Below, in pieces: positions 497 through 19,456 of a stretch of DNA of 21,234 nucleotides. Each line of letters opens with the position of its first letter. The first letter of the stretch is position 1. Source of the stretch: a virus; IMG/VR virus record IMGVR_UViG_3300025872_000376, positions 1 through 21,234 of that record; one strand, 5' to 3'. The notes under the pieces were generated by a model. The model saw only the letters and a list, made by a program, of their open reading frames with translations. It did not search any database and had not been told where the DNA came from. Both the position numbers and the translations under genes were made by a program.

Positions 497-3400
497 TCAC
501 TGTGTCCCTGGGGTGAAGGTGCCGATGATGTCCGCCGCTACGATCGTGGCGGGTTTGGGCGATGAGTTCCGCAGGGTGATCGTCGCGGTGTCGTTGAACC
601 CTTGCGGGAACGCGAAGAAGGTGCCTTCGTTCTCGATGTCCACCGTCGTATCGCGGGGCGTGAACGTGTAGTCCCGCGTCGTGCCCGCTTGTGAAATCCG
701 CACGGTGTACGCGGCGGTGTTGCGGTGGACGAGGGCGAGCTTGTCGAGTTGCAACTTCCCGTCGATGACGGTCTGGTTGTTCTGGTCCCGCTGGTACGGG
801 CGGGAGAGTTCCGCAACCATATCGAAGGTGCGACCGAGGTAGCACGCGAACGCGGAGTAGTCGCCGGTGATGGTGACGGTCCCGGCGGTCGAGCCGGGGT
901 TGCCCGACAGCACCGTGCCGGGCGTTGTCGTGGTGCCTGTTATGGAGTGCGAGGTCGCAAAGGGCGTGGTGTTGTACGTCAGCGCGATCCGCTTGCCTCC
1001 GGGGTCAACAACGATCGACGTGACCGCCGCCGCCGGGGTGATGGACGGGGCGGTGAACTTCGTGGACCACCCGCCGCTGAATCGCCACGCCTCGATGTAC
1101 GGCGTGGATGCGACGCCCAGGTACACGCCGCGCCCGTCCGGGTGCCACGCGACGGCCTGCCCGTTGCCGCTCGGAAGCGACGACGGGTTGGTGTACTTCG
1201 TGCCGAATACCGTCGTGAACGGGTAGGCGGTGACGTAGGGCGACGTTGCGTGCGAGACGGCGATGGCGGTGCCGTTGTAGTTCCACGCCACGTCGGTCGC
1301 GTTGCCGACCGGCAGCGTGCCGGGGTTGGCCAGTTTCGATCCGAAACCGCTGCTGGTGAACGGGTAGGCGGTGATGTAGGGCGTCGTGGTGTGCGCCACC
1401 GCGATGTAGGTGGAGTCGGGGTGCCACGCGACATTCTTGCCCGCGCCGGTCGGGAGCGTGCCGGGGCTGGAGAACTTCGAGCCGAAACGGTCGGCGGTCC
1501 ACGCCCACACCTCGACGTAGGGAGATCCGCTGGTGGCGACGGCGACGTAGTTACCATTCGGGGACCACGCCACGCCGGCGCAGGTCGCGGTCGGCGTGCT
1601 GGTCGCGGTGATCTTGCGACCCAGCCCGGCGGATGTGAACTTGTACGCCATGAGCGATCCGCCCGTGACCGCCGCGAGCAGGTCGCCGTCCGGGTGCCAC
1701 GCAACATCGAACACGGGGTTGCCCGGATTGCTGGAAGGATCGGGCAGTTTGGTGCCGATGCCGCCACTCTTAGTCCAGGTGTAAACCGCGATGTACGGGG
1801 ACGTGGACAGCGCGAACGCGATGTAGTTGCCGTCCGGGCTGATCGCGGATCGCACCGCTTGCTGGGCGAGCACGCCGGTCGTGCCGGTGCCAAACGCGGT
1901 CGGGTTCGAGATGTCTGGGAAGTCCGGGCCGGTCACGATCACGTCGATCTTGTCGTCATTGAACCCGAGCGTGAACGTGGTGGTGGTGCTGCTGAACGTG
2001 CCGGTCTTGGAAACCATGTGGTCGATGTGCGGTGCGTAGGGCATCCCGTCATCCGCGCCATCCTTGGCGAGCGCGAGCCGCATGAACACGAAGTAGCCGG
2101 GGTATTCCTCGACGAGCAGGTACGCGAAGTCACGGATGACCGCCACGTCGGCGATGCGGTCGTCGTCGTCGAGCGTGATGCGGGACCACGCTGATTGCAC
2201 CTTCTCGTTGCCGCGCCAGAAGTAGCGGTAAACGTAGATGCTGCTCGCGTCGGTCGGCAGCGCGAGCACGGTGTTGGTGTTCAGCCCGGTGTGGATCGTG
2301 CGAATATCCGTGGGCAGGTAGCGGTCGCAGTGGGCGGTGATGTTGGCGGCGGTGCTCGACGTGATCGAGTCGTCGTAGAAGTATTCGTACACCTGCCCGC
2401 CCGCGCCGACCTGATCGGAGGCGAAGTAGAGTTGGTTTTCAAGCACGGCGGGCTTCACGTCCATCGAGTCGTAGGATGTGGACGGTGTAATCGCGGCGGT
2501 GGTGGGCGAAAGCGTTTCGGGGGCGTTGAGTTCAAACTGCCGACCGGCCCGGGTGAAGATGACCAGTGACTTTCGGAACGGGGTGAGCGAGTCCACGATG
2601 GCGACCTCATCGGAGGCGATAGCCACGTCGATCGGGTCGGAGTCCACAAGGTTGTTTGCGTCCTCGATGAAGAAGTTGAAGAAGTCGCCGGCCTGCGAGA
2701 ACACCACATTGTCGTCGGCCCCGATGGCGAGGCGGTTGCGGTGGAACACGATGTCGCGGATGGTGTTGCCCACGAAACTCGGCAGTGGGTTCGTATCCGT
2801 GTCGCCGGTTTCGCGGAACTTCCAGTCGATCACGTCCACGTCGAAGTAAGTGTCGTAAATCGCCCATTGATGCGACGCCCCGCTTAGCCCTCGCTCGTAG
2901 TGAATAGTGACAACATCAGAGGCGATTACGCCAGTGTAAAGAGCGAGGTTGTTTATCGTCCCATCAAGATACTCGCTGCCCGCACGGTTGCGTCCAACCA
3001 CCGACCCGAATCCGATCGACGCGAACGTGTCAAGCAAGTCCTGCGTCGTGTAAGTCACCGGCAGGCTGACGCCATCGACGTAGAACTGCACGGATCGCGT
3101 GGACGGCGTGGCGGTGACGACGACGTGGTGCCATGCGTTGTCAACGATTCCAGCCGCGCTGGTGGTGCTGGCGTCAAGAACATGCGCCGCGTCATCCTCC
3201 CATCGGAGTCGCAACTTGTCGGCGGCGGTGATGCTCACCTGTACCCAGACGTTGCCGCCGCCGTCGCCCAGGTCTGCAATCATGCCGACCGCGCCGGCGG
3301 TGGATCGCTTGATCCAAAACTCGATGCTCATGCCGCTGGCGATGGCGGTCCCCCATGACCCAAGCGCCGGGATGTCGATGCGGGCGGTTGTTCCGTTGAG

Positions 3401-4714
3401 CGTAACCGCCGCGCCATTCTCGCCAGCCCCGTTAGCATTGAGTGTGTAGCCGCTAGTGTAGGTCGCGTCATAGGTCGCGTTGCCTTCAAAGTTGTCGGCG
3501 ACCGTTCCTGATGTTTCGTTGAATATCCAGTACGCGAACAAATCGTCGGTGTTGAGCACGCCGTCGAAGTAGCCGCCGGTGGGGAGCGGGTTGTACCGTC
3601 GCACGATTTGGATCGGCATGGTGCTCGCGTCGAGTTTCGCATCTTTCTGCGACGGGGCGGGCACCCGCACCCAGCGGTCCACGATGTTCTCGACGAATGC
3701 GGAGGCGTCGCCGGTGCCCGCCGTGACGACATCGCCGATGCCGCCGGTGTAGAACGGGAATCCCGACCCGGAAAAGTCGTACACGTTGCCGTCAGTCGGA
3801 GACGTGATGCAGTTAGCCCCGAAGGTCGCGCCCGCGCCGCCGTAGGGCGACGTGATAATGAACTTGGCGATGCCCTGTGAAACCCACTGCCATCGGCACT
3901 GTGCGTTCTTCGCCCCGGCGTTTTGCAGAGCGCGTGTGATCGCATCGGCAACGTGCCGCATCTTGGTGATGCTGGAGTCGTCCTCCATGTTCCACACCAC
4001 GTCGTAGGTTACGGTGGAGCTATCAGCCTTGGTGAACGTAATCTTGAACCCACCGGGGTTGCGGGTGCTCGCCTTCCATGTCGCCACGTCGCCGTAGTCC
4101 GGAGAGCCTGCCCGGTTGTATGTGGGCAGCGCCAGCGTTGCCGGGGTCGCTCCGGGAACGTACTTCCAATAGCCAGCAGTGCGCCCGTTGGAGTCAGTCT
4201 TGGTGCGGTGGTAGGTGTTGACCGCTGGAGTTTTTCGGGTCATCTCCTCATAGTCGTCGTGCTCGTCCGTGACCGTGTAGGCGTCGGAGTCGGACGAGTC
4301 AGATTCGACGGTGCGGTTTACGAGGATCGTGTAGTCGTTGCTGCTGATGAGCCGCATGTCGTCGGCGGTGGCGCTGTTCGCATCGAGGTACGTTTGCGCG
4401 GCAGTGCTGATCTTCTTTTCGACCTCGCCGCCCGAGTTCACCACATCGAAGAACCGCAGCGTCGAGTCGCCGTAGGCGATCAGGTATTGCTCGTCCCCGT
4501 CGCGGTTGATCGCGTGCAGGCGGTAGTTGCCTGCGGCGGTCAGGTCGGTGATCGCCGAGCCGAAGTGCGTGGTGCCGTTCCGCTTGGACATGCCATCCGA
4601 GACGGACAGGTACACGTTGTCGGCGGACGCGACTTGGTTTGGGTGGCGCAGCGCCGCTGCCTGCTGGGAAGCGCCGCCGAACAGGCTCGGGATCGAGATG
4701 CGTGTGTTGGGCAT
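497..4714 (-). CDS. Tail tubular protein B (gp12-like) with inserted LamG and seven-bladed propeller domains
   Basis: This 1405-aa protein is the nozzle protein of a T7-like tail, made much longer by insertions; T7 gp12 is about 794 aa. The N-terminus (SIPSLFGGASQQAAALRHPN) and the part after residue 610 (RDIVFHRNRLAIGADDNVVF, then SLTPFRKSLVIFTRAGRQFE) are typical of tail tubular protein B. So is the last 125 residues, with RPYQRDQNNQTVIDGKLQL. Residues about 385-610 form a LamG/concanavalin-like jelly roll (FAYWIFNETSGTVADN; GMSIEFWIKR; NAWHHVVVTA; VQFYVDGV). Residues about 945-1270 contain seven repeats of about 45 residues of the type VAWHPDGxYIAVAxxxxPYI, a WD40-like propeller. The start ATG lies five bases after the stop of tail tubular protein A. 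Nozzle function is known for the family. The insertions probably lie on the outside and bind glycans or the receptor, which is inference. Confidence 0.9.
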   Translation of the reverse strand: MPNTRISIPSLFGGASQQAAALRHPNQVASADNVYLSVSDGMSKRNGTTHFGSAITDLTAAGNYRLHAINRDGDEQYLIAYGDSTLRFFDVVNSGGEVEKKISTAAQTYLDANSATADDMRLISSNDYTILVNRTVESDSSDSDAYTVTDEHDDYEEMTRKTPAVNTYHRTKTDSNGRTAGYWKYVPGATPATLALPTYNRAGSPDYGDVATWKASTRNPGGFKITFTKADSSTVTYDVVWNMEDDSSITKMRHVADAITRALQNAGAKNAQCRWQWVSQGIAKFIITSPYGGAGATFGANCITSPTDGNVYDFSGSGFPFYTGGIGDVVTAGTGDASAFVENIVDRWVRVPAPSQKDAKLDASTMPIQIVRRYNPLPTGGYFDGVLNTDDLFAYWIFNETSGTVADNFEGNATYDATYTSGYTLNANGAGENGAAVTLNGTTARIDIPALGSWGTAIASGMSIEFWIKRSTAGAVGMIADLGDGGGNVWVQVSITAADKLRLRWEDDAAHVLDASTTSAAGIVDNAWHHVVVTATPSTRSVQFYVDGVSLPVTYTTQDLLDTFASIGFGSVVGRNRAGSEYLDGTINNLALYTGVIASDVVTIHYERGLSGASHQWAIYDTYFDVDVIDWKFRETGDTDTNPLPSFVGNTIRDIVFHRNRLAIGADDNVVFSQAGDFFNFFIEDANNLVDSDPIDVAIASDEVAIVDSLTPFRKSLVIFTRAGRQFELNAPETLSPTTAAITPSTSYDSMDVKPAVLENQLYFASDQVGAGGQVYEYFYDDSITSSTAANITAHCDRYLPTDIRTIHTGLNTNTVLALPTDASSIYVYRYFWRGNEKVQSAWSRITLDDDDRIADVAVIRDFAYLLVEEYPGYFVFMRLALAKDGADDGMPYAPHIDHMVSKTGTFSSTTTTFTLGFNDDKIDVIVTGPDFPDISNPTAFGTGTTGVLAQQAVRSAISPDGNYIAFALSTSPYIAVYTWTKSGGIGTKLPDPSSNPGNPVFDVAWHPDGDLLAAVTGGSLMAYKFTSAGLGRKITATSTPTATCAGVAWSPNGNYVAVATSGSPYVEVWAWTADRFGSKFSSPGTLPTGAGKNVAWHPDSTYIAVAHTTTPYITAYPFTSSGFGSKLANPGTLPVGNATDVAWNYNGTAIAVSHATSPYVTAYPFTTVFGTKYTNPSSLPSGNGQAVAWHPDGRGVYLGVASTPYIEAWRFSGGWSTKFTAPSITPAAAVTSIVVDPGGKRIALTYNTTPFATSHSITGTTTTPGTVLSGNPGSTAGTVTITGDYSAFACYLGRTFDMVAELSRPYQRDQNNQTVIDGKLQLDKLALVHRNTAAYTVRISQAGTTRDYTFTPRDTTVDIENEGTFFAFPQGFNDTATITLRNSSPKPATIVAADIIGTFTPGTQ

Positions 4715-5519: not shown

Positions 5520-5784
5520 GAGGCACCTCCTGTACGCGAGCCGTTTCGATGATCTGTCTCCGGATGATGTCGCCGGTGAACGCCAGCGCACCCATGATGA
5601 GAACGCCTATGGCAATCCACGCCGCTTTCTGTGCGGACCTGGCTTGCTGCTCCACCCGGTCGAACCGGACGATGATGCCCCGTTCGGGCTGGTCGTCTCC
5701 AGTCAGGATCGAGTTCAACTTCTCGACCTCCTTGCGGAGCGGTTCCATTGCCTCGCGGACGGCACGTTGAATGTCATTGCTCAT
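5503..5784 (-). CDS. Small coiled-coil plus one-TM protein, holin-like (XhlA-type)
   Basis: A 93-aa protein with an amphipathic, charged N-terminal half ([18 protein letters not shown] and [16 protein letters not shown]), one hydrophobic segment at about residues 54-70 ([17 protein letters not shown]), and a charged tail. This layout resembles the haemolysin XhlA/holin-like proteins of phages: a coiled coil followed by one membrane segment. Its place in the late region before the tail tube genes is compatible with a lysis role, but no endolysin adjoins it. The start at 5784 overlaps the upstream stop codon as ATGA. A GGAGG lies about 13 bases upstream. A longer in-frame reading of 120 aa has an Arg/Pro-rich N-terminus that belongs to another frame. 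The function is inferred from topology only; a virion membrane protein is the alternative. Confidence 0.65.
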
Positions 5785-7607
5785 ACCGTTCGATCCCTCC
5801 GTCGTGTGTGGAAGCGGTGGCGGGGCGGGAACGTCGTGGCGGCGGTGGACGCGGCATAGACGCACCCGACAAGGTGCAGGGTGAAGTCGGTGACTTCCGG
5901 GTCGTCGGTGGTGATGACGAGATCGCCGGTGAAGCTGCCCACGTCCGCATCGGACAGGCAGACGATGAGTTGGGCGGACGCGCCGGGGCCGAGCGTGCCG
6001 GGCAGTGCCTGCGATTCAACCCAATGGGTGGGCACCGTGACGCCGGTGATGGTCATGGTGCCCGCCCCATTGTTGGTAACGGTGAACTGCTTGCACGAGT
6101 CGCCAAGCCCCTGCACGATGCACGCGCCCCAATCCACAGTGTCGCCGCTCGAAAGCTGCGTCTCACCGGATGCGACATGGGCCTCGACCTCGATCTCGGT
6201 GCCCAGGCCGGTGATGGCGAAGGTGTACGGGTTCTCGTCGGGATCGTCGGACTCGATGGTCACGGTGTCGGTCTTGGTGCCCGTGCTCGTAGGAGCGAAG
6301 GTGATCGCACAGATGACGCTGGTGCCGGGCGGGATCGTGTTGGTGAACGGGAACGAGGCGACGCTGAACTGCGTGCCGGTGGTGAGCGCCACCTTGGGCG
6401 TGCCGGTCAGGTTGAGCGCGACATCGCCGGTGTTGGTGATCTGGAACCAGTGCGTCGCGCCGGTGGTGCCGACTGATGCGGTGCCGAAGTCGGTCCCGTC
6501 CGCCGTGGTCGGGGTCGCGTCGCCGTCGGGGATGTCGATGCCAAGCCCGCGAACGCGGATGTCCGAGGCGGTGCCGAACCCTTGGATGGCGAACGTGTAC
6601 GGGTTCTCGTTGGCGTCGTCGTTGGCGATGCTGACCGTCGCGGTGCGAGTGCCGGCGGCGGACGGGTTGAACCGCACCGTGAACGTGGTCGATCCGCTTG
6701 CGGCGACGGGGCTGGACGGTTGCGAGGTGACGGAGAAGTCGGCGGCGTTGGTGCCCGACAGCGCCACCTTGGGTGTGCCGGATAGCGTCAGGTCATCGAC
6801 GCCGGTGTTCTCGATGGTGAACGTGCGGTCCACGGTGCCGCCGGTGACGAGGCAGTTCCCGAAGTCGGTGTGGTCGGTGGTGCTCGGCGTCACGTCGCCG
6901 CTAGCGATGCTGACGCTGTTGCCCTTGACGTTCATCTCGGGGCTGGCGACGCCTGTGCCCTGGATTGCGAACGTGTAGGGGTTCTCGTCCGAGTCGTCGT
7001 TGGCAATGCTGATCGTAGCCGTTCGCAGCCCGGAGGCCGACGGGTTGAACTGCACAACGAAAGTTGTGGACCCGGAGGCTGAAACGGGAGACGACGGCTG
7101 TGTGGATACGATAAAGTCGCCGGCATTGGTGCCGGATAGGGCAACTTTAGGAGTACCTGTAAGTGTCAGACTTGCCGACCCCGTGTTCTCAATCGTGAAC
7201 GTGCGGCTCACGGTCGCTCCGGTAACGTCGCAGTTGCCGAAGTCAGTGTGGTCGGCGGTGGTGGGCGTCGTGTCGCCATCAGCGATGGAGACGCCGTTGC
7301 CCTTGACGTTCATCTCGGGAGTAGACGCAACAACGGACACTGTGCCCGACATGCCGCCCGTCATCGAGCCTGTAGCTGGCGGGGTGAAGGATGAGCTTGA
7401 GTAGCTCTGCCCGCCATTGTTGAGCGTTAAGGTGTACGCCCCGCCGGACAGAACAAGGTCGGCGTCAATCTCGGCGGGCGAGCCAATGTTGGCGGTCCAC
7501 GGCCCGGACGCGCTGCCGCCGGTCAACGTCCACGTTCCGTTTACGTCGGAGTCGGAATAGTCCCACGGATCATCGGCACCGCTGATGGTGATGTCGATGG
7601 TTGCCAT
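5781..7607 (-). CDS. Choice-of-anchor-D Ig-like repeat protein, putative virion decoration or fibre
   Basis: A 608-aa protein made almost wholly of beta-sandwich repeats. Residues 1-96 are a Gly/Ser/Thr-rich N-terminal domain ([20 protein letters not shown]). Four repeats of about 115-126 residues follow at 97-222, 223-348, 349-472 and 473-587. The first three share [29 protein letters not shown], the segment [17 protein letters not shown], and the end [17 protein letters not shown]. These are the marks of choice-of-anchor-D / ASPM-SPD-2-Hydin Ig-like domains, usually found in secreted or surface proteins of bacteria. The fourth repeat is degenerate. The last about 20 residues are Arg-rich and overlap the next gene. 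ATG 7607 was preferred because AAGGA stands about nine bases upstream. An in-frame start at 7805 would add a membrane segment. Lying between capsid and tail genes, it is probably a virion surface protein, though this is inference. Confidence 0.8.
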
Positions 7608-7805
7608 TGCGGAGTCCTTGATGATTGGGGTGGGCGCGGGACGCCACGCCGGCGGATGCGGCGGCAGCGGCGCGAGAACGAGACAGAGCTTCCAGACGAG
7701 GGCAATCAAAACCACCGCCAGCAAGGCGATGGCTTTGGGGATTTGGTGCGGGCGTTGGTCAGCCGAGAACTTCGACGTTGCCGAGCGAGCCGTCGATGGG
7801 GCCAT
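7608..7805 (-). other. Possible N-terminal extension with a membrane segment, in frame with the anchor-D gene
   Basis: Between the stop of the 98-aa gene (7759) and the preferred start of the anchor-D gene (7607) lie about 150 bases. They are open in the frame of the latter and have coding-like codons. They encode a hydrophobic stretch ([21 protein letters not shown], shown in two parts as [11 protein letters not shown] and [10 protein letters not shown]) followed by a Pro-rich linker. The only ATG upstream is at 7805, inside the 98-aa gene, and would give a 674-aa protein with a 66-residue N-terminal extension. TTG and GTG codons within the hydrophobic part are other possible starts. The segment looks like a signal anchor. 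Whether it is translated cannot be decided from the sequence. Confidence 0.4.
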
Positions 7806-8055
7806 AGCTTCCGGTCGGGATGTTGTTGGGGGTTCCCTGAACCTGGGCGGTGGAGTGGATCGAGCCGTCGTTGAACTCGAAGTGCCAGCGGTTGGCCCCG
7901 TCCGCGCGAATGTTGTACTCGCACGGGCCACGGTAGAAGTACCGACTCGGATGGACCTGCTCCAGCACGAACTCACCGTTGGGATCGCCGGTGGTGTAGT
8001 CCATGAACTCGCCGAAGTCGGGCATGTTGGTGATGCGAACGCGGATGTCGGGCAT
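7759..8055 (-). CDS. Small hypothetical structural protein (98 aa)
   Basis: A 98-aa protein that I do not recognise. It is rich in aromatic and polar residues ([20 protein letters not shown], then [19 protein letters not shown] and [17 protein letters not shown]), has no hydrophobic segment, and looks like a compact beta-rich domain. It ends in a Gly-rich stretch. The start ATG at 8055 has AAAGGA about nine bases upstream, placed 15 bases after the stop of the preceding gene, so the two are probably co-translated. Being within the late block between capsid and tail genes, it is likely to be a minor virion component. Its last part overlaps the possible upstream extension of the anchor-D gene. 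Confidence 0.7.
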
Positions 8056-18345: not shown

Positions 18346-19203
18346 TCATGCTCCTTGGGTTGATTCGAGGTAAGCCATCACGAACGCCGCCCCGTCCTGG
18401 GGATTGATTGCATTGCCGTAACCGCGCAGTCGCACCACTCGGGCGGGTAGCCTTGTAGCCAACGGCTGAAATGCGGGTTCAACCGGGGCGCGCCGGCGCG
18501 ATCCGTCGCGGAGGGTGAGGATGGTGTAGTCGGACCAGGGGCCAGCGATGCCTGCGGTGGTAGCCCCTGATGTGCTGATCGCGTCACCTTGTTGGCGTCC
18601 CCGCTCGTCGGCGTGGCCCAGCCCGCCAGCAACTCCACTCGCCTTGAGTAGTCGCTGTTCCCCGCTGCGCTGTTGCCGTTCTGCGCTGGCGTCCCAGCCA
18701 TTGGCGTCGGCCAGCCAGTACAGCCGTTGCCGGATGTGCGGCGCGCCGACGCTGTGTGCGCCCAGTACCGCCGCCCCGCAGGCGTAACCCGCTCCTTCCA
18801 GGTCTCCGAATACTCCATCGAGCCATCCGTGCCTGACCGCGCCTTCAACCTGCTCTCCAAACGCGATTGCAGGTCGGCACTCGCGGACGAGCCGGAACAT
18901 TTCTGGCCAGAGATGTCGCTCGTCGGCGGCACCTTTTTGCTTGCCCGCCGTGGAGAACGGCTGACAGGGGCAGCTTCCTGTCCAAACAGGTCGGTCGTCG
19001 GGCCAGCCTGCGAGTCGCAGGGCGTAGCTCCATCCTCCGATCCCCGCGAAGAAGTGGACTTGTCGGTAGTGTCGAATGTCATCGGGCTTAACCTCTTGGA
19101 TGGGGCGATCATCAACGTCGCCAGGTGCGATCAGGTTCCGCTTGACAAGCTCGCGCAGCCACGCAGCGGTCTTTTTGTCGAACTCGTTGTAGTAGGCTGT
19201 CAT
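18346..19203 (-). CDS. DNA (cytosine-5) methyltransferase, Dcm type
   Basis: A 285-aa methyltransferase that moves a methyl group from S-adenosylmethionine to C5 of cytosine, probably to protect phage DNA from restriction. Motif I is FFAGIGGWS (51-59). Motif IV GSCPCQPFS holds the catalytic Cys80. Motif VI is FGEQVEG (115-121), motif VIII is PHIRQRLYWLA (155-165), and motif X is GYGNAINP (261-268). The part between motifs VIII and X that chooses the target is short. The N-terminus (YYNEFDKKTAAWLRELVKRN, then APGDVDDRPIQEV) is that of a phage-borne subgroup. No endonuclease gene adjoins, so it is an orphan enzyme. The ATG at 19203 overlaps the previous stop as ATGA. A 234-aa ORF in another frame lies wholly inside this gene. 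Confidence 0.93.
   Translation of the reverse strand: MTAYYNEFDKKTAAWLRELVKRNLIAPGDVDDRPIQEVKPDDIRHYRQVHFFAGIGGWSYALRLAGWPDDRPVWTGSCPCQPFSTAGKQKGAADERHLWPEMFRLVRECRPAIAFGEQVEGAVRHGWLDGVFGDLEGAGYACGAAVLGAHSVGAPHIRQRLYWLADANGWDASAERQQRSGEQRLLKASGVAGGLGHADERGRQQGDAISTSGATTAGIAGPWSDYTILTLRDGSRRRAPVEPAFQPLATRLPARVVRLRGYGNAINPQDGAAFVMAYLESTQGA
18378..19082 (-). CDS. Putative overprinted protein inside the methyltransferase gene (WPTP / LNPxxSRWLxGYPPEW family)
   Basis: A 234-codon ORF in the +1 frame of the methyltransferase gene. It starts MTFDTTDKSTSSRGSEDGAT, has GPTTDLFGQEAAPVSRSPRR, then ARRTSGNGCTGWPTPMAGTP and AGWATPTSGDANKV, and ends with LNPHFSRWLQGYPPEWCDC. From memory, many phage and bacterial genomes have annotated proteins with the same order: a TTDLFG start, one or more WPTP motifs and a LNPxxSRWLMGYPPEW end. 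These lie beside or over dcm genes. The frame is open for nearly the whole length of the gene. It may be a real overprinted gene or a by-product of conserved methyltransferase codons. No ribosome binding site is seen before this ATG; an earlier in-frame ATG exists at 19115. Confidence 0.35.
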   Translation of the reverse strand: MTFDTTDKSTSSRGSEDGATPCDSQAGPTTDLFGQEAAPVSRSPRRASKKVPPTSDISGQKCSGSSASADLQSRLESRLKARSGTDGSMEYSETWKERVTPAGRRYWAHTASARRTSGNGCTGWPTPMAGTPAQNGNSAAGNSDYSRRVELLAGWATPTSGDANKVTRSAHQGLPPQASLAPGPTTPSSPSATDRAGAPRLNPHFSRWLQGYPPEWCDCAVTAMQSIPRTGRRS

Positions 19204-19387: not shown

Positions 19388-19456
19388 GTGGAGCGCTTGG
19401 ACTCGAACCAAGACCTCGGGATTTAAGCCCCGCGTGCTGCGTTACACCACGCTCCA
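19388..19456 (-). tRNA. tRNA-like gene, anticodon probably UAA (Leu?), with unusual arms
   Basis: On the minus strand a cloverleaf can be drawn: acceptor TGGAGCG/CGCTCCA (7 bp), D arm GTGT-AACGCA-GCAC, anticodon arm CGGGG-CTTAAA-TCCCG, variable loop AGGT, and a canonical T arm CTTGG-TTCGAGT-CCAAG. The acceptor and T stems are perfect. The D loop lacks the GG pair and is one base short. The anticodon arm is 16 rather than 17 bases long: either a six-base loop closed by a G-U pair, or an eight-base loop on a 4-bp stem. With U33 at the first T of the loop the anticodon is UAA (Leu), yet the variable arm is short, unlike tRNA-Leu. CCA is not encoded. It may be a degenerate or specialised phage tRNA. 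Confidence 0.65.

Follow-up and report, generated by a model that had tools for sequence, protein, structure and literature searches.

A cytosine methyltransferase gene (dcm) in a viral genome carries a long open reading frame in its +1 frame, which raises the question of whether this second frame encodes a protein and, if so, what that protein does beside the methyltransferase. The gene lies in a window of 21,234 nucleotides (the whole stretch of DNA analysed, IMG/VR record IMGVR_UViG_3300025872_000376), which is part of a T7-like podovirus as judged by gene content: a single-subunit RNA polymerase, a T7 capsid assembly protein, a Gp10A-like capsid protein, a head-tail connector and a nozzle protein. 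A preliminary description had pointed to a 234-codon ORF within dcm at 18378-19082, and this was present as described on the minus strand. It runs from ATG to stop, its ATG lying 121 nt downstream of the dcm start, and in-frame alternative starts are available at 19112 (ATG) and 19115 (TTG). We refer to the dcm product as alpha and to the product of the nested frame as beta; their parts are collected in Table 1. The TTDLFG and LNPHFSRWLQGYPPEW strings that had drawn attention to the frame were both found in the beta translation. Of the two W-x-TPT motifs also mentioned, both are present as W-x-TP units (GWPTPM and WATPT) and only the second has the strict form. Elsewhere in the window, the nozzle protein (497-4714, 1405 aa) has a laminin-G-like domain and a WD40-like propeller region, and a 731-aa protein (5781-7976) has four HYDIN-type Ig-like stretches; these are unusual names for a phage protein. 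A tRNA gene call with a two-base anticodon (ta) lies at 19388-19456, on the same strand and just upstream of the methyltransferase gene.

Table 1. Positions of the alpha and beta chains and of their parts in the window.
Feature	Coordinates	Strand	Basis
Alpha chain (dcm gene), predicted C5 cytosine methyltransferase large domain, 285 aa	18346..19203	-	PF00145, phrog_363
Beta chain, nested gene in the +1 frame of alpha, 234 aa	18378..19082	-	ORF, phrog_1008, selection in relatives
Shine-Dalgarno-like AAGAGGT, 8 nt upstream of the beta ATG (19082)	19091..19097	-	Sequence
Alpha motif I, FAGIGG	19033..19050	-	Translation
Alpha motif IV, PCQPFS, catalytic Cys	18952..18969	-	Translation
Beta helix and beta-hairpin, SASADLQSRL..GSMEYSETWK..TPAGRRYWAHTASA	18744..18887	-	Confident part of the beta model
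Beta GWPTP unit	18702..18716	-	Translation; conserved in A4
Beta WATPT unit	18606..18620	-	Translation
Beta LNPHFSRWLQGYPPEW, proposed motif IX	18435..18482	-	Translation; counterpart in L415 aligns weakly to M.HhaI
Alpha motif X, RGYGNAINP	18400..18426	-	Translation; conserved in A5

The alpha chain matched PF00145 (E = 9.8e-20) and phrog_363 (E = 2.7e-78). With the PF00145 catalytic domain, a PCQ motif and motif X present, it is assigned from its sequence as a C5 cytosine methyltransferase; within it we take FAGIGG to be motif I, PCQPFS to be motif IV with the catalytic Cys, and RGYGNAINP to be motif X. The AlphaFold2 model of alpha had pLDDT values >90 over most of residues 1-180 and an ordered motif X helix, with values <50 at residues 193-219 and 243-255. 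Compared with M.HhaI (VIA-align), the model gave a Z of 16.1 and an rmsd of 2.8 with 170 of 327 residues aligned, and the alpha sequence aligned solely to M.HhaI residues 3-32 and 70-172. Motif IX was sought in the A5 consensus of alpha and was absent, and alpha is not a complete monomer, in which a single chain would hold both a target-recognition domain (TRD) and motif IX. In M.HhaI the small domain holds both the recognition region and motif IX, according to PMC3404938. Because of the two disordered stretches and the partial alignment to M.HhaI, alpha appears, in the model, to be without an ordered small domain.

In the window alone, the length of the beta ORF is only moderately unusual: the longest +1 run in dcm was 250 codons against 137 expected from synonymous shuffling of the gene (p = 0.017). 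Across relatives, the open +1 frame is far beyond chance. By the same shuffling, the longest +1 run averaged 284 codons against 147 expected, with p <= 0.01 in 59 of 103 genes, compared with 1 of 103 for the +2 frame. Over 212 distinct genes, the beta run spanned a median of 0.89 of alpha and fell below 0.6 in a single gene (L032), in which both frames appear shifted together. Bacterial loci with a gene GC of 0.45-0.55 had the +1 frame open over 222-304 codons; the control, E. coli Dcm, had a longest +1 run of 88 of its 473 codons. The null models take synonymous codons as independent. Identical genes were merged in the counts of relatives, and genes of <200 or <230 codons, containing N or running off a contig end were omitted from the shuffling, pair and run-length tests. 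Frame similarity in gene pairs exceeded that of shuffles with a z of 6.1 for the +1 frame, which alone is non-decisive since the +2 frame exceeded shuffles as well (z 4.0).

Substitution rates in the two frames were then compared in relatives, as the preliminary description had suggested. Among alpha-altering changes at alpha codon position 1, the ratio of beta-nonsynonymous to beta-synonymous rates was 0.211 (95% CI 0.118-0.320; 57 independent close pairs), compared with 1.223 (0.664-2.557) in 35 pairs of flanking control genes. Alpha-silent changes that put a stop codon into beta had a ratio of 0.048 (0.010-0.093), versus 0.688 in controls. The gene pairs came mostly from environmental contigs, in which sequencing errors are possible. 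Beta is a real gene under purifying selection of its own in relatives, and the scarcity of beta-altering changes together with the near absence of beta stops argues strongly against a passive shadow. The proposal of a true dual-coding pair was thus borne out by the 57-pair test and by the regional rates given below; the other reading offered with it, chance conservation of the second frame by dcm codons, was contradicted by both.

The constraint on each frame changed along the gene. The first 25 alpha codons evolve like those of an ordinary gene. Over alpha nt 125-300, which encode the N-terminus of beta, the constraint on beta was not significant (0.58, 0.00-1.64). Both frames were constrained over alpha nt 300-480 (w_beta 0.20, w_alpha 0.17), and the region of the beta helix and hairpin likewise showed constraint on both frames in relatives. 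In the interval from motif VIII to motif IX only beta was constrained (w_beta 0.15, w_alpha 1.23, 0.60-5.59). The motif IX stretch was constrained in both frames (w_beta 0.21, w_alpha 0.16), and the final part of the overlap belongs to alpha. This frame mosaic is repeated in the wider family (87 genes, GC 0.44-0.66, 26 pairs), where the ratio of rates at codon positions 3 and 1 was 3.23 over motifs I-VI, followed by 1.68, then 0.31 in the recognition region, 0.44 at motif IX and 4.49 at motif X. A third set (L480-501, 10 pairs) gave ratios of 2.22, 0.39 and 2.38; here the alpha frame holds motif IX and the +1 frame the recognition region alone. That +1 frame is interrupted by many stops across motifs I-VI and opens only at about motif VIII. 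This sister set offers a useful stage for following the origin of the split.

Start signals for beta were enriched inside alpha. Of 199 genes, 75 had a Shine-Dalgarno (SD) 5-mer upstream of a +1 ATG, where 26 ± 3 would be expected, a 3-fold enrichment. An in-frame beta ATG stood at alpha nt 109 in 120/212 genes (57 expected), and 51 of these 120 had an SD 5-mer (6.5 expected). At the offset used in the window (121), relatives showed no SD enrichment (5/54, 4.0 expected). Alpha itself is kept open through the recognition region though its residues there drift: given the beta protein, the expectation over 148 genes is 2.07 stops per gene and a stop-free region in 18% of them, while a stop was observed in 1 of 160 loci (L107). 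Within this 160-locus count, alpha was open through motif X in 149 and ran off the contig end in 3; another 5 (L075, L082, L100, L280, L296; alpha of 288-377 codons) had no match to the motif X expression, and early alpha stops occurred in 3 (L079, L107, L113). In L113 (TGA) and L079 (TAG) the alpha stop falls exactly at a Trp position of relatives, with beta open there, and every in-frame stop listed for L113 is a TGA; these stops could be recoding, decay or sequencing error. An alpha frame held open despite drift, together with the internal starts, is better fitted by two full-length chains than by ribosomal frameshifting.

The beta chain matched phrog_1008, labelled 'DNA methyltransferase', with an E-value of 8.8e-33, a name that may merely have been copied from the overlapping gene. 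It had no match above cut-off in Pfam or NCBIfam, methyltransferase models included, and endonuclease families were unmatched in Pfam, PHROGs and NCBIfam. The conserved beta sequence LNPxxSRWLMGYPxEW lies just upstream of alpha motif X and matches cytosine-methyltransferase motif IX. In one relative (L415) a single frame holds both the motif IX-like sequence and motif X, and their alignment to M.HhaI 270-318 is weak (6 bits, i-Evalue 48). Modelled alone with AlphaFold2, beta gave a poor structure (mean pLDDT 62, pTM 0.30), of which the better parts were a helix with a hairpin (block means of pLDDT 61-89) and two C-terminal helices. A Foldseek search of the PDB with this model gave no match at E <= 0.001, and a search of PDB sequences with the beta profile gave none. 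A poor solo model is what a chain folding on a partner might give, and is not evidence for that.

Beta and alpha were found together almost everywhere in the sets searched. Beta lay over a dcm-type gene in 80/80 viral contigs selected by dcm, and the two frames overlapped in 79/79 loci found with a second-frame profile (L118 and ~78 new loci). Bacterial genome contigs found with alpha alone had a beta match in the same phase in 80/80 cases, the run exceeding 0.7 of alpha in 79/80; carriers included Proteobacteria, Verrucomicrobiota, Planctomycetes, Nitrospira, Acidobacteria, Desulfovibrio and a Leptospiraceae MAG. When the beta motif was sought as a DNA pattern, VEWLMG[FY]P, at least 120 loci were returned; 121 ORFs formed the sample among the matches listed, and 118 of these 121 were nested in an alpha gene in phase +1. 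The three exceptions among the matches listed were L415 and L423, with the motif and alpha in one frame, and L376, a non-overlapping ORF of 68 aa; L423 looks like a deletion fusion. We had presumed that free-standing beta homologues exist, and the preliminary description likewise placed some homologues outside dcm. None was found with the second frame, its profile or the DNA pattern among the matches listed; the homologues examined overlie a dcm-type gene. Of the two things that had been named together as telling against a second gene, homologues confined to shadows over dcm and a lack of constraint of their own, the confinement was found and the frame was clearly constrained.

Annotation of the pair is uneven. 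By CDS extents, five of eight phage records annotate alpha only, two beta only (Cr-LKS3 and PMG1) and one both (K1H). In Pseudomonas phage PMG1 (L562), whose record lists beta alone, beta is intact and alpha appears to carry a frameshift close to its 5' end. In another locus (L154:1947-3332) the beta ORF extends ~200 codons beyond the end of alpha and matches phrog_27714 and phrog_23155, both of unknown function.

Taken together, these results support a model, to which we assign a probability of roughly 0.87, in which the locus encodes a two-chain C5 methyltransferase, alpha providing the catalytic core and motif X and beta the recognition region and motif IX. Alpha (frame 0) would comprise the SAM-binding and catalytic large domain (motifs I-VIII) together with motif X, and beta (+1 frame) would be translated in this phage from its own ribosome-binding site inside alpha. 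Beta would supply the missing small domain, namely the variable target-recognition region with its W-x-TP units and motif IX. Together the chains would assemble into an active enzyme, with beta presumably binding alpha and setting the sequence specificity. The phage may use this enzyme to protect its own DNA from host restriction, the usual role of phage DNA methyltransferases. The earlier idea of a second product acting on the methyltransferase was close, in that beta most likely works with it; for the counter-defence role suggested alongside, nothing was found in support.

Three other explanations were weighed. The apparent conservation of the second frame might merely follow from that of dcm, together with the low number of stops in that frame of GC-rich genes, as could be argued for a window gene with a GC of 0.64 whose ORF alone is only moderately unusual (p = 0.017), and the +2 frame too is more alike than shuffles; but the rate tests were made within codon positions, beta avoids stops far more than controls do, the frame is open down to GC 0.45, SD sites are enriched and one region has the beta frame alone constrained, which leaves this explanation a probability close to zero. 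Conservation as a shadow only was rejected by rate tests and regional rates in three sets. We also regard programmed frameshifting as improbable. Ribosomes would have to slip twice per gene, to the +1 frame past motif VIII and to the alpha frame again ahead of motif X, to yield one fused chain; although the regional frame mosaic by itself fits such a product, as does the late opening of the +1 frame in L480-501, the enriched internal ATG and SD sites lie far upstream of the switch point, and an alpha that is stop-free through its unconstrained recognition region is unneeded for slippage. M.EcoHK31I, the precedent, consists of two polypeptides.

We judge it very improbable that beta stands apart from the enzyme as a protein in its own right, such as a methyltransferase regulator or an anti-restriction factor. 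Beta carries the motif that alpha lacks, at the DNA position where that motif belongs, alpha is without an ordered small domain in the model, and free-standing beta was not found among the matches listed; these points outweigh the facts that beta matches neither a characterised fold nor a Pfam family and that the beta frame of two relatives contains an HNH/endonuclease VII domain and so is able to host other functions.

A wider reading can be put forward tentatively, at somewhat less than even odds: a large, multi-phylum clade of C5 methyltransferases would have moved its specificity region from the catalytic chain into a nested +1-frame chain, the annotated 'dcm' genes of many phages would be half-enzymes, and the variable number of W-x-TP units would make beta modular, perhaps multispecific and exchangeable. 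Under this wider reading the recognition chain could evolve freely because the residues of alpha in that stretch are themselves free to drift. On the two-chain reading, many phage and prophage cytosine methyltransferases would be listed as one chain while the enzyme needs two, and this need could account for clones without activity and for specificity predictions that failed. The locus would also be a rare case of dual coding in which the division of labour is visible by region, catalysis belonging to one frame and DNA recognition to the other, with one stretch where the nested frame alone matters.

A second frame within a phage methylase gene has been described before. The ShiLan domain is an out-of-frame HNH in other phage methylases, as given in PMC11855218. 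The likeness extends to two relatives with an HNH-like insert in the beta frame (L124:1143-2669 and L167:1200-2576). In these, ~180-220 aa are inserted after about alpha residue 130 with alpha open across, and in the beta frame the insert reads as an HNH/endonuclease VII protein (phrog_3322, E = 3.7e-29 and 7e-28). In contrast to ShiLan, a patchily distributed homing insert, beta has a methyltransferase motif and occurs in almost every relative examined, and no HNH endonuclease was recognised in the window beta with Pfam, PHROGs or NCBIfam.

The same two frames already stand in databases. GenBank lists a 'putative Mte8-like protein' beside a 'putative C-specific methylase' in phage K1H, and PHROG 1008 and PHROG 363 correspond to beta and alpha; these entries differ from our reading in being two separate items, without a statement of one enzyme. 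In the open-licence literature, 'Mte8' could be traced to no more than a gene name (PMC5582158). A description of the nested arrangement as general was not found in the open-licence PMC literature, and one may be published elsewhere.

Among two-polypeptide enzymes, the beta chain of M.EcoHK31I (YGGCCR) was reportedly described by Lee, Kam and Shaw in 1995 as nested out of frame inside its alpha. The larger polypeptide of this enzyme carries motifs I-VIII and X and the smaller one motif IX, and the predicted TRD is placed in the larger chain (PMC3404938). By that account the present pair is alike in that alpha also carries motifs I-VIII and X and beta a motif IX (with the weak M.HhaI alignment in L415), and differs in that the corresponding region is here constrained in the beta frame only. 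We do not file alpha and beta as a member of the M.EcoHK31I type, because the TRD placement differs and the comparison is one of descriptions. M.AquI (CYCGRG), also described in PMC3404938, is split within the variable region, its second chain having part of the recognition region. On that description it resembles the pair described here as a two-polypeptide C5 methyltransferase with a recognition part in the second chain; the smaller chain of M.AquI holds motif X, whereas here motif X remains in alpha.
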